Source: Halobaculum roseum | Lineage (GTDB): Archaea > Halobacteriota > Halobacteria > Halobacteriales > Haloferacaceae | DNA length: 64,000 nucleotides | Reading direction: 5' to 3' | Assembly: GCF_019880245.1 (NCBI RefSeq) | Contig: NZ_CP082286.1 | Location: forward strand, 2,622,521-2,686,520 | In this document: one piece after another, positions 7,899 through 18,510 of the stretch | Numbering within the stretch: position 1 is the stretch's first letter | How the letters are laid out: the number at the start of each line of letters is the position of its first letter | Made by a program: the position numbers and the translations under genes | The notes under the pieces: generated by a model | Told to the model about the DNA's origin: nothing | Databases searched by the model: none | The model's input: the letters and a program-made list of their open reading frames with translations, nothing else

Positions 7899-8043
7899 GC
7901 GAGACGCGAGGAAGCGAACATAGTGAGCGACTGAGCGTCTCGGAAGGACGGCGGCGAGGTCGTCTGGCCGAGCCGCCCACAAATGAGGCGAGACGCGAGG
8001 AAGCGAACGGAGTGAGCGACTGAGCGTGCCGGAAGGACGGCGG
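7899..8043. repeat. Two direct copies of a ~55-bp GCGAACGGAGTGAGCG-type repeat
   Basis: Copies at 7899-7953 and 7988-8043 share GCGAGACGCGAGGAAGCGAAC, then (AT/GG)AGTGAGCGACTGAGCGT, and end in CGGAAGGACGGCGG. The core GCGAAC(GG)AGTGAGC also occurs in the spacers behind tRNA-Val (about 12895-12915 and 13021-13037) and, in looser form, behind tRNA-Phe (16913-16926) and at about 18375-18395. The 7898-8065 gap contains nothing else recognisable. Confidence 0.75.
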
Positions 8044-12731: not shown

Positions 12732-12804
12732 GGGCTCGTGGTCTAGTGGTTATGACGCTTCCCTTACAAGGAAGAGATCGGTGGTTCAACTCCGCCCGAG
12801 CCCA
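12732..12804 (+). tRNA. tRNA-Val (anticodon UAC)
   Basis: A complete cloverleaf can be drawn. The acceptor is GGGCTCG (12732-12738) paired with CGAGCCC (12797-12803), with discriminator A12804. The anticodon stem is CTTCC/GGAAG around loop CTTACAA, giving UAC. The T-arm is GGTGG-TTCAACT-CCGCC. There is no intron and no encoded CCA. Its T-arm and acceptor 3' half are repeated twice downstream. Confidence 0.96.
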
Positions 12805-13101
12805 GTTCTGCCGCCGACCCGGCGAGGAGCGAAGCGACGAGCCGTCGGCGGCGTCCGGCGTGTCAGGAGTTGAGCCCTGCAAGTCGCGCGCAACGAACGA
12901 AGCGAGTGAGCACGTCTTGCTCCGGTTCAACTCCGCCCGAGCCCATTCGAGCGCCCGAGCGGAGCGAGGGCCGAGATGTTCTGCGGGTGAGGAGTGAACC
13001 AGACGAGTCGCAGCCCGGGAAGCGAACGGAGTGAGCGACCCGGAACGTCTCGGCGTGGTTCAACTCCGCCCGAGCCCGGTTCTGCCGCCGACACGGCGAG
13101 G
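12783..13101 (+). repeat. Iterated 3'-end fragments of tRNA-Val with GCGAACGxAGTGAGC spacers
   Basis: The tRNA 3' end (12783-12803, GGTTCAACTCC through GAGCCC) recurs exactly at 12924-12944 and 13057-13077. The last copy also repeats the downstream flank (GTTCTGCCGCCGACxCGGCGAGG, 12805-12827 and 13079-13101). The two spacers each hold a GCGAACGGAGTGAGC-like core. The second spacer ends in CCCGGAACGTCTCGGCG (13039-13055), a 17-mer that also precedes the tRNA-Phe 3' copy at 16934-16950. These fragments lack acceptor 5', D and anticodon arms, so they are not tRNA genes. The 312-nt gap before mqo contains nothing else. Confidence 0.85.
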
Positions 13102-13116
13102 TTCCGGCTAAATGAG

Positions 13117-14484
13117 CTACTGCGCGGGGGCGGGGGCGTGGGTCGCCTCGGCGTACGGGAAGTTCTCGATCGTCTCCTCGCGGAACGCCTCCTCGTCGAA
13201 GGAGTACTCGCCGTCGAAGAAGTCCATCAGCGTGTGCGTGTCGCGCATCGCGTTCTTCAGGCACGTCGAGGCGCCGGGCGACGGGGTGATGTTGAAGATG
13301 ATGTCCTTGCCGACGATCTTCGCCTCGCCCATGTCGAGCGAGCGCTCCTCGGTGTCGACGATCTGCGGCCGGACGCCGCCGTAGCCCTCGGCGCGCTCGA
13401 TGTCGTCGAGTTCGACGCTCGGGACGACCTTCCGGACGTGCGGGAGGAACTGCTTGGGCCCGACGGACGGGAGGTCGTACACGAGGTTCCGAAGCACGTA
13501 CGGCAGGAGGATGCGGTCGGCGAGGATGTTGGCGTAGCTGAGGAACGCCGCCGCGTTGAGCCCGAACACGTCGAGGAAGTCGGGCACCGTCGAGACACGC
13601 CCGCGTTCGAGCGCGGGGACGAGCTTCGCGGTCGGGCCGAACCGCGTCACGCTGCCGTCGTGCACGTCGGCGTCGCCGTGGACGGCCGCGAAGGGGAGCT
13701 TCTTCATCTGCAGCGTGTAGACCTTCCCGTTCAGGAGGTCGTCGGCGAGGAAGAAACTGCCCGCGACGGGGAGCAGGACCTTGTTCTGGCCGTATCCAAG
13801 CTGCTTCGCCATCTGAAGGCTGTGGGAGCCGGCGGCGACGACGGCCGCCTCCGACTCGATAGTGCCGGCGGTCGTCTCGAACGTGTAGCCGTCGGGCGTC
13901 GGCTCGACGGACTCGACGGCCGTCCCGGTCCTCACGTCGACGGTCGCCTCCTCGCGGGCCTGCTCGACGAACGACTTCGTCGTCTCGCCGTAGTCGACGA
14001 CGTAGCCGTCGGGCGTCTGCAGCGCGAGCATCTCCGTGTCGAGGTCGCGTCCCTCGACGACCTTCGGCTCGATCTCGGCGATCTCGTCGCGGCCGATCGG
14101 CCGAAGCTTCGGGAAGAGGTCCCCGAATCCCTCGTCGTGGTACCGCTGCTCCAGCTTCTCGACCTCCTCGTCGCCGACGCCCAGCACCATCTTGCTGCGC
14201 TTGGCGTGCATCTCCCGGTCGGCGTCCTGGTTCTCGAGATAGCCGGCGAGCAGCTCGGCGCCCTCCTTGACCTCCTCGGCCTTCTCCAGGGTGTAGTTGG
14301 TCTCGATGTCCCCGAAGTGAAGCGTCTGGGAGTTGTTCGTGTGGTGGGAGTTGATCGCGGCGATCTCCGGCTCCTTCTCGATCAGCGCGATCGACTCGAT
14401 ATCGGTGAACTTCGCCGTCGTGTACAACAGCGACGCACCGCTGATACCTCCGCCGACGATAACGAGGTCGTACGTGTCGGACAT
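13117..14484 (-). CDS. mqo: Malate:quinone oxidoreductase
   Basis: 455 residues. An FAD enzyme on the inner membrane face that oxidises malate to oxaloacetate and passes electrons to menaquinone. The N-terminal dinucleotide-binding motif DLVIVGGGISGASLLY is followed by the Mqo block NNSQTLHFGDIETNYTL (about 50-66), then VVAAGSHSLQMAK and the C-terminal RPQIVDTEERSLDMGEAKI and FNITPSPGASTCLKNAMRD. The length is somewhat shorter than bacterial Mqo (about 500). It is transcribed divergently from the sodium symporter at 14676, with about 190 nt of intergenic DNA holding both promoters. Confidence 0.9.
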   Translation of the reverse strand: MSDTYDLVIVGGGISGASLLYTTAKFTDIESIALIEKEPEIAAINSHHTNNSQTLHFGDIETNYTLEKAEEVKEGAELLAGYLENQDADREMHAKRSKMVLGVGDEEVEKLEQRYHDEGFGDLFPKLRPIGRDEIAEIEPKVVEGRDLDTEMLALQTPDGYVVDYGETTKSFVEQAREEATVDVRTGTAVESVEPTPDGYTFETTAGTIESEAAVVAAGSHSLQMAKQLGYGQNKVLLPVAGSFFLADDLLNGKVYTLQMKKLPFAAVHGDADVHDGSVTRFGPTAKLVPALERGRVSTVPDFLDVFGLNAAAFLSYANILADRILLPYVLRNLVYDLPSVGPKQFLPHVRKVVPSVELDDIERAEGYGGVRPQIVDTEERSLDMGEAKIVGKDIIFNITPSPGASTCLKNAMRDTHTLMDFFDGEYSFDEEAFREETIENFPYAEATHAPAPAQ

Positions 14485-16820: not shown

Positions 16821-16894
16821 GCCGCCTTAGCTCAGATTGGGAGAGCACTCGACTGAAGATCGAGCTGTCCCCCGTTCAAATCGGGGAGGCGGCA
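16821..16894 (+). tRNA. tRNA-Phe (anticodon GAA)
   Basis: The acceptor is GCCGCCT (16821-16827) paired with AGGCGGC (16887-16893), with discriminator A16894. The anticodon stem is CTCGA/TCGAG around CTGAAGA, giving GAA. The T-arm is CCCCG-TTCAAAT-CGGGG. There is no intron and no encoded CCA. Its 3' end is repeated at 16954-16972 and, in diverged form, at 18336-18358. The second copy bounds a lower-GC insert. Confidence 0.96.
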
Positions 16895-16953
16895 TTTTCC
16901 GAACCCATCGTCGCGAGCGAAGCGAGCCGCACGCCCGGAACGTCTCGGCGAGC

Positions 16954-16972
16954 TCGAATCGGGGAGGCGGCA
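16954..16972 (+). repeat. Duplicated 3' end of tRNA-Phe (proximal copy)
   Basis: TCGAATCGGGGAGGCGGCA matches 18 of 19 bases of the tRNA-Phe 3' end (16876-16894). It is preceded by CCCGGAACGTCTCGGCG (16934-16950), the same 17-mer that precedes the last tRNA-Val 3' copy. Only the T-loop and acceptor strand are present, so this is an att-like remnant and not a gene. Confidence 0.85.
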
Positions 16973-17201
16973 TCATACTCACGGTTCAAATACTTGCGGT
17001 GCTGCAAGGGTGATCTCCCAGGGTTTCTCGGAACCGATTTACCGATCGCGAGCTGCGACTGTCGTCGCACTTCGATCCATATCGGTGGTACTGCGCGAAG
17101 GATCTCGAATACGCACATTCAGTACGTACCTGAATACATACTCCGGTACACGAGTGACCACCCGACCTCTGCTGTCGCTCAGAACTCACCGAAATACGGA
17201 C

Positions 17202-17708
17202 CTACTCACTCACTGTGGCAATGGAATCAACTCCGACGGGTCGTCCATGCTCCCACTCGACAGCGAGGACCACGTCTCGAAGCGAGTTGAGTCTGCGCTC
17301 GACAATGTCCAGTGGATGTGAGTCGATGAATTCCGCAGGTTCGTGCGCGACGGATGTCGCGCCGTCGTTGACCTGCAGATGAACTGGTCCGAGGTCGTCG
17401 TGCGTGTCATCCTGGTGCCAGCCCACCAGCAGACTTCGATCTGGCTCGATCCAGTTGAACCAATAGTACTCGTGTGGCTCCCCAGTCTGCAGTTGGAACC
17501 CGATCTCGACCCGCGCGGTCGCCACTGGGTACTCGCCGTCTAAGAACTGGCGTGGGTTTACCTCAGCGACGGCCCGGTACGGGCCAGCTTCACGCGGCTC
17601 AGCGCGTCGCTGCCGAACGTTCTCGAACTCACCGCTGAGTCGGTTCTGGATGCGGTCGTGGAGCCGCTTGTTCTGCAAGTTCGCCCGATTAGCGAGGAAA
17701 ACAACCAT
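17202..17708 (-). CDS. TumE/DUF6516-like protein, putative toxin partner
   Basis: 168 residues. The central block (about 65-145) reads YWFNWIEPDRSLLVGWHQDDTH, then GPVHLQVND and FIDSHPLDIVERRLNSL. This resembles the TumE/DUF6516 pattern, in which a W/R-x-W-D segment and spaced His residues (DDTHDD...GPVHLQ) precede a helix. Proteins of this family pair with HTH partners in toxin-antitoxin-like operons. Its ATG overlaps the upstream HTH gene stop (TAATG, 17706-17710), so the two are translationally coupled. Codon use is less G/C-biased than that of neighbouring housekeeping genes, consistent with transfer. Toxin activity is inferred only from this resemblance and layout. Confidence 0.55.
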   Translation of the reverse strand: MVVFLANRANLQNKRLHDRIQNRLSGEFENVRQRRAEPREAGPYRAVAEVNPRQFLDGEYPVATARVEIGFQLQTGEPHEYYWFNWIEPDRSLLVGWHQDDTHDDLGPVHLQVNDGATSVAHEPAEFIDSHPLDIVERRLNSLRDVVLAVEWEHGRPVGVDSIATVSE

Positions 17709-18247
17709 TAGGCGAGTGTCGAGGGAGAGTCAGTCCGCGGCGACGAGAGTTCGATGACGTCATCGTACAGTTGGAGAGCGTGTTTCACGAGCCCGAGTTC
17801 CGTGTTGATCGCCTCCCACGTGGCGATCACGTTGCGACGTTCACGAAGTTCCTCCGTCGAGAAGTCCTCGTCCGCGAGTTGTTCCCGGAACTCATCGAGC
17901 GAACTGACCTCGTACTCCGCAGCCAGCTCTTCTTGTTCCTCCGTTAGTTCTGTGAGTTGACTCTCTAGTTCGTCACGCGAGTGAGCCTTGATCAGGTCGG
18001 TCACCTCGTCGAAGAGCATCCGTACGGGATTCAGATCGTAGGCTTTCGTCCCGTCGACAGTCGTTTCCGTGACCCAGTCGTCGCTCTCCAGTCGCCGGAG
18101 TTCATCGTCGGCCGTTGCGCGGGAAACGTCGGCTCGGTCCGCGATCTCTTGCACCGCCGTTGGTTCGTCCAGCAGCTCCACGACGTGCCGGACGCGCTCA
18201 CGTCCGCTCATTGTCTCCGTCCACGATCCTGGGTTCGATTCAACCAT
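17708..18247 (-). CDS. Winged-helix DNA-binding protein with coiled-coil tail (DUF7342-like), putative antitoxin/regulator
   Basis: 179 residues. The N-terminal winged helix-turn-helix (about 15-75) includes PTAVQEIADRADVSRATADDELRRLESDDWV. A Glu-rich helix (about 90-130, LESQLTELTEEQEELAAEYEV) and a C-terminal helical region follow. It is the first gene of the pair, consistent with an antitoxin that represses its own operon. An AT-rich promoter-like sequence (about 18274-18288, revcomp ATAAATTATTTG) lies about 30 nt upstream. A second possible start is M13 (18211), just before GRERVRHVVELL. The family name is given from recollection of similar haloarchaeal proteins. Confidence 0.6.
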   Translation of the reverse strand: MVESNPGSWTETMSGRERVRHVVELLDEPTAVQEIADRADVSRATADDELRRLESDDWVTETTVDGTKAYDLNPVRMLFDEVTDLIKAHSRDELESQLTELTEEQEELAAEYEVSSLDEFREQLADEDFSTEELRERRNVIATWEAINTELGLVKHALQLYDDVIELSSPRTDSPSTLA

Positions 18248-18335
18248 TCGACTAGGTCTTGGACCGCTCCGCTCAAATAATTTATCTTGGTTCAGATATC
18301 CAGATGAGGAGTGATTCGTCCTTCGGTGGAAGGCG

Positions 18336-18358
18336 GTTCAGATGCTGGGAGGCGGCAT
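18336..18358 (+). repeat. Distal, diverged copy of the tRNA-Phe 3' end
   Basis: GTTCAGATGCTGGGAGGCGGCAT aligns with GTTCAAATCGGGGAGGCGGCAT of the tRNA (16874-16895) with a few mismatches and one extra base. The acceptor part, GGGAGGCGGCAT, is identical. It marks the far end of the island. Positions 18359-18510 hold a GAACGAGCGTAGCGAGTGAGC repeat and no gene. Confidence 0.7.
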
Positions 18359-18510
18359 AGTCTCCGGCCGACAACGCGAACGAGCGTAGCGAGTGAGCCG
18401 TCGGTCGGGAATCTGTACCCCCGAGCCGGTTTCACCTTCGAGTTCGGCCGGCGAGTCAATTTCCTCCCGCAGTCGACGAGGCCACGAGGTCGCTGTCGCC
18501 GGCCCCCGGA

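Follow-up and report, generated by a model that had tools for sequence, protein, structure and literature searches.

Folded-strand site-specific recombination has, to our knowledge, so far been tied to bacterial integrons and a few phages. The integron attC site combines R arms that pair over 9-11 nt, an unpaired central spacer, a poorly conserved L stem and a variable terminal structure, with joining at G^TT (PMC2727003). The short units described here, which stand behind haloarchaeal tRNA genes, resemble this site in that their folded form has arms of ~9-11 nt, an unpaired central spacer, an inner stem and a variable terminal part. The block of identity between unit and tRNA starts with G53-T54-T55 (0.98, 0.99 and 0.99), matching the G^TT triplet, and strand exchange would take place there. 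As in integron and CALIN arrays, the units are tandem, have a fixed orientation and are added next to the anchor. They differ from integrons in that no unit contains a gene, the anchor is the tRNA T-loop rather than attI with an arm matched to each tRNA, and the preferred folded strand is the tRNA-sense strand, whereas attC uses the bottom strand. Across 10 genomes, either unit-rich or related, no integron integrase (IntI, TIGR02249) scored over the cut-off. Counts of tyrosine recombinases (PF00589) bore no relation to unit number, and neither did counts of Y1_Tnp (10 matches and no units in genome G024, one match and 44 units in G017). Because of these searches for machinery, we do not file the units as integrons.

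Other described systems share fewer features with the units. Elements moved by tyrosine integrases likewise insert behind a tRNA gene and regenerate its 3′ end through a direct copy. The units differ in their size (~75-250 bp), in lacking an integrase and cargo, in forming up to five tandem copies, and in having a block sharply delimited to G53-N73 together with an inverted T-loop arm; an integrative element family is tied to one or a few tRNAs, whereas unit cores occur behind at least eight tRNA species. The RAYT-linked REP, BIME and REPIN sequences are also short, intergenic, gene-less imperfect palindromes that are paired and strand-polar, but the units are anchored on tRNA genes, contain a 20-nt tRNA copy and a tRNA-specific arm, and have no link to Y1 counts. 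Casposon or CRISPR-type arrays at tRNA ends show a similar repeat-spacer-like alternation, with the tRNA end as the ‘repeat’, but the spacers of the units are structured and recurrent rather than acquired sequence, and an inverted arm is present. Every known family considered thus fails at least one defining feature that was tested, and, on the basis of the open-access literature, the arrays would be a new category.

The window, which is the whole stretch of 64,000 nucleotides analysed, contains one such array behind a tRNA-Val(UAC) gene, with the following features.

12732..12804, + strand: tRNA-Val(UAC) gene (ARAGORN), T54 at 12785 and discriminator N73 at 12804
12805..12865, + strand: spacer hairpin of unit 1, GTTCTG-CCGCCGAC...GTCGGCGG, orthologous in G001, G002 and G005
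12866..12874, + strand: inverted arm R'' of unit 1, GGAGTTGAG, complementary to the tRNA-Val T-loop arm
12875..12925, + strand: hairpin core of unit 1, CCCTGCAAGTCGC..CGAAG..GCACGTCTTGCTCCGG
12926..12945, + strand: first direct copy (R') of tRNA-Val T54-N73
12946..12990, + strand: spacer of unit 2, homologous to the type-C unit spacer in G003, G007 and G010
12991..12998, + strand: inverted arm R'' of unit 2, GGAGTGAA, one base short
12999..13058, + strand: hairpin core of unit 2, the common type B, CCAGACGAGTCGCAG...GGAACGTCTCGGCGTGG
13059..13078, + strand: second direct copy of tRNA-Val T54-N73
13079..13101, + strand: start of the spacer of a truncated further unit

A reading of the sequence alone had reported that the 3′ end of this tRNA is iterated, and the 21-mer GGTTCAACTCCGCCCGAGCCC is indeed exact at 12783-12803, 12924-12944 and 13057-13077; two additional exact 21-mers inside 300 bp rule out chance. 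The same reading took 13078-13101 (GGTTCTGCCGCCGACACGGCGAGG) for 24 nt of the original downstream flank. This segment is instead a truncated further unit, as it matches the first 23 bases both of the unit 1 spacer and of its orthologue in relatives; in G008, a relative without units, another sequence flanks the tRNA at this site. The proposed stepwise insertion stands in so far as short units follow one another at the tRNA 3′ end and each restores that end, with neither integrase nor cargo. The type B core of unit 2 recurs downstream of Ser, Tyr, Gly, Leu, Glu and Met tRNA genes, and the homology of its spacer to the type-C spacer is, judged from the sequences, module reassortment. When the whole genome was searched with the tRNA-Val stretch, most matches lay in the 3′ flanks of other tRNA genes (Ser, Gly, Tyr, Val, Arg and Met), and each of these flanks holds a copy of the 3′ end of its own tRNA. 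The gene next to the array, on the minus strand at 13117-14484, shares 93% identity with that of Halobaculum saliterrae.

The anatomy of the units was read from the DNA 3′ of nearly every tRNA gene in the genome of the window (Halobaculum). Of its 46 chromosomal tRNA genes, ~24 have tandem units behind them, between one and three per gene and in part degenerate. A unit consists, in order, of a spacer, an inverted arm R'', a core and a direct copy of the host tRNA. The spacer is a GC-rich hairpin that often starts with TTCTG, and the core belongs to one of a few recurring types common to different tRNAs; within one genome, near-identical cores stand behind different tRNAs with unrelated spacers. 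Cores measure 22-123 nt, a spread that comes from the variable apical part, and their two ends can be recognised throughout. Across 112 units from several genera, the direct copy is exactly G53 to N73 of the host tRNA, a shorter block than is typical of integrases, with an identity of 0.98-1.00 from G53 across the T-loop and T-stem and 0.91-0.99 up to N73, against 0.28 three bases before T54 and 0.55 past N73. The inverted arm is the complement of T54-C62/C64 in the tRNA it stands behind, and at the variable T-loop positions 57, 59 and 62 it matches that tRNA at 0.98, 0.98 and 0.89, compared with 0.59, 0.76 and 0.65 for permuted tRNAs; the match fades past approximately position 64. Where the copy has mutated away from the tRNA, the arm follows the copy in four cases, the tRNA in five and neither in two. 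None of the 112 units contains a gene, the spacers of 20-156 nt being too small for one, and no integrase gene or recognisable element remnant lies between the copies. Arrays with as many as five units were read directly. In G217 (C1:1475000-1477500, L386), a tRNA-Asp(gtc) gene has been duplicated along with its array, giving two genes 460 bp apart. Approximately nine clustered tRNA genes on a 240-kb replicon (G000 C2:103386-107166, L050) are without any units; tRNA gene clusters of this kind are seen in viruses or plasmids.

Arm, core and copy fold into a hairpin with a mean z of -4.6 against dinucleotide shuffles. Its outermost pairing joins the arm to T54-C62/C64 of the copy that follows; inside this come an internal loop, the covarying inner stem and, at the tip, a part whose length varies. 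In the covariation set, which was partly found by an exact-arm pattern that biases the outer arm and not the inner stem, 88.8% of inner-stem cells are paired and 10 pairs have changed on both sides. Shuffles had 17.8 cells changed on both sides where the stem has 51, and none of 500 was as good; slid controls are 23-55% paired. With G-U pairs forbidden, the tRNA-sense strand folds better than its complement in 106 units and worse in 6, a preference that appears to be caused by purine-rich loops. We had considered this strand preference as G-U selection for RNA and dropped the idea when the same asymmetry was obtained without G-U pairs; in the inverted arm, G-U is not favoured over A-C. In 74 cores the apical loop motif RCGNAGY is confined to the tRNA-sense strand, and in two it is confined to the opposite strand. 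RCGNAGY is the looser form of the motif; a strict scan for C-GNA-G closed by three contiguous Watson-Crick pairs misses most loops, since tandem G-A mismatches interrupt the stem. DNA mini-hairpins of the sequence GCGNAGC (GCGAAGC-type) are extraordinarily stable (PMC4686876). The window holds 11 GA-RCGNAGY-GA sites, of which six lie in the 3′ regions of its two tRNA genes, all in tRNA sense.

The second tRNA gene of the window, for tRNA-Phe(GAA), is a locus of the same kind.

16821..16894, + strand: tRNA-Phe(GAA) gene (ARAGORN)
16895..16972, + strand: degenerate unit, with its terminal copy at 16952-16971 carrying two mismatches
18336..18410, + strand: degenerate tRNA-Phe 3′ copy and old unit spacer, which adjoins the tRNA in relatives

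This old spacer has been displaced from the tRNA by a two-gene insert of ~1.4 kb, and one of the six tRNA-linked GA-RCGNAGY-GA sites lies within it, 1.5 kb downstream of the tRNA. The insert is located between the degenerate unit and the old unit spacer (16895-18410) and encodes a DUF7342 helix-turn-helix protein (17708-18247, minus strand) and a 168-residue product of no known kind (17202-17708, minus strand). It is flanked by tRNA-Phe 3′ copies, has no integrase and was present in none of the relatives compared. Away from tRNA genes, intergenic hairpins GACGCGAGGAAGCGAACGGAGTGAGCGACTGAGCGTCTCGG at ~7970-8030 of the window and at G000 C1:506414, 1621414 and 2138450 resemble the cores and lack tRNA copies; they are possibly a related dispersed repeat family.

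The arrays differ between close relatives. Copy-number variation of the tRNA-Val 3′ flank, which the sequence-only reading had proposed to look for, is present: 11 Halobaculum genomes have 0, 1 or 2 units of differing kinds at tRNA-Val(UAC), so that related species vary rather than share one identical, invariant array. When all tRNA loci were compared between the sister species G000 and G005, 19 of 21 unit-bearing loci differed, and 9 of 14 unit-free flanks were at least 90% identical. At Val(gac), Leu(gag), elongator Met and Leu(caa), units are cleanly present or absent at the tRNA end and the flank that follows is the same; the Leu(caa) difference is between other members of the four species compared. 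Extra tRNA-proximal units occur at Val(cac) and Ser(cga). At Lys(ctt), Tyr, Leu(taa) and Ser(gga), the spacer of one unit is joined to the core of another inside the inverted arm; at Gly(gcc) the core has been replaced with spacer and flank unchanged, and at Asp the unit order is swapped. The junctions of the rearrangements between the sister species fall at T-loop sequences, either direct copies or the inverted arm. Either gain or loss may underlie these differences, and deletion between the 20-bp copies could explain many absences. Neither excision products nor movement of units were seen. The Val(gac) unit is missing in three relatives, and its copy is degenerate. Overall, unit number ranges from 0 to 5, and complete absence at the same tRNA is frequent in sister species.

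The pattern GATTYGAA-N(28-58)-TTCRAATC, used to search for the T-loop inverted repeat, has matches in 280 of the 292 Halobacteria genomes, with a maximum of 25 in one genome, and its reversed control has none in the same genomes. Approximately 25 of 30 fetched matches lie directly 3′ of a tRNA gene. The sequence-only reading had described a scar of past insertions at one locus, which is not upheld at this breadth, with the same cores behind about half of the tRNA genes of the genome. In a phylum-wide sample, the pattern was found in 31 of 33 haloarchaea compared with ~17 of 164 other genomes, and the one or two matches per non-haloarchaeal genome look like chance. By a covariance model, the genome of the window has 33 units, two further genomes have 46 and 44, and three have none. 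The units match no Rfam family other than tRNA, phage records gave no match, and plasmid records gave weak matches to two haloarchaeal megaplasmids. Viral records searched with the T-loop pattern gave AT-rich chance matches for the most part, together with an unrelated set of bacterial prophage ends. These GC-rich ends (IMG/VR contigs L240, L255, L270, L273, L285 and L292) contain a long, nearly perfect inverted repeat of a tRNA 3′ half, CATGGATTTGAACC..AGAGG / CCTCT..GGTTCAAATCCATGCCCCGCTA, and may be another hairpin-type attachment end. We found no description of such tRNA hairpin arrays in the open-access literature.

Genuine integrase elements are present at two of these sites. A 6-kb integrative element lies between tRNA-Leu(tag) and an att copy (G000 C1:807459-813734, L210), with a PF00589 integrase next to the tRNA, a SHOCT-domain protein, and a gene-less unit directly after the att copy. 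A 3.4-kb integrase element lies between tRNA-Gly(ccc) and an older unit (G000 C1:1500239-1503800, L382) and is absent from the sister species G005. Both are tRNA-proximal to an older unit. Their identity blocks extend further 5′ to include the 5′ strand of the T-stem, with a length of at least 37 nt at Leu(tag). The right ends of both elements have no inverted arm and no core. Integrase elements and units thus share the site but differ in kind.

We favour, with a probability of about 0.5, the reading that gene-less cassettes stack in tandem at haloarchaeal tRNA 3′ ends and recombine at the T-loop (G53|T54) via a folded strand. Each cassette begins with T54-N73 of its host tRNA, so that insertion next to the tRNA regenerates an intact gene, and it closes with the hairpin whose outer arm pairs with the next copy. 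The incoming cassette would enter the matching tRNA harmlessly while the old end shifts downstream, which would account for both the sharp G53-N73 block and the tandem growth. The joining point would be G53|T54, the tRNA T-loop would serve as the anchoring site, and the tRNA-sense strand would take part as a single-strand hairpin, like integron attC sites. As a first guess, the enzyme may be a tyrosine recombinase acting in trans. A stronger version is only tentatively put forward: a haloarchaeal integron-like platform in which dozens of tRNA T-loops anchor attC-like gene-less cassettes, with a tRNA-adapted arm, exchange of the cassettes through the folded tRNA-sense strand and an undescribed recombinase. 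Turnover might also be passive: the hairpin-rich DNA could change by replication template switching, by slippage from one 20-bp copy to another and, haloarchaea being polyploid, by gene conversion. The losses and reassortments do have their junctions in short repeats, and one deletion in G005 uses the microhomology CGCCCGAGCC; moreover, quasipalindrome correction by template switching perfects inverted repeats and could imitate covariation. We nevertheless think it rather unlikely that no dedicated enzyme is involved, since passive dynamics leave unexplained the sharp edges of the copied block, the recurrence of core types at many tRNAs, the constant orientation with its 74 to 2 polarity of apical loops, and the haloarchaea-only range and spread to new tRNA genes.

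That the units are attachment-site-only derivatives, scars or satellites left tRNA by tRNA by integrative elements, was in essence the earlier view of the tRNA-Val locus. The Leu(tag) and Gly(ccc) elements, with an att copy at the same 3′ end in a tRNA-proximal position, are what such a history would leave, but their longer identity blocks and armless, coreless right ends do not match units that each have an inverted arm fitted to their own tRNA. One integrase family per tRNA would not yield the same cores everywhere, and the phage and plasmid records offer only the two weak plasmid matches, so we regard this origin as improbable. The constant orientation, the folding preference for the tRNA sense and the covarying stem would also suit a structured RNA co-transcribed with the tRNA, for processing, termination or as a small RNA, with quick turnover. 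It is hard to reconcile with an asymmetry indifferent to G-U pairs, apical loops of the DNA mini-hairpin type, the lack of an Rfam match and arrays that are often wholly absent at the same tRNA in a sister species, and we give it little credence. Least credible is mobilisation of REPIN-like hairpin pairs by Y1/HUH transposases of the IS200/IS605 or REP type. The two hairpins per unit, the folded-strand polarity and the lack of genes are in keeping with it, but the Y1_Tnp counts do not track the units, and every unit has a 20-nt tRNA copy, whereas Y1 elements, as far as we know, leave no target duplication.

The tRNA-Val array is one case of a class-wide feature that extends far beyond a single locus, and the collected features point to an undescribed family of recombining elements anchored on tRNA genes. 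If the recombining-cassette reading is true, the tRNA genes of nearly a whole archaeal class would bear a family of fast-changing elements that has gone unnoticed, and folded-strand site-specific recombination would extend to archaea. It would also explain the strong divergence of haloarchaeal tRNA 3′ flanks between sister species and bear on the attraction of integration to tRNA ends. Even if turnover is passive, each genome offers dozens of replicate loci at which hairpin-driven rearrangement can be studied as a natural experiment.
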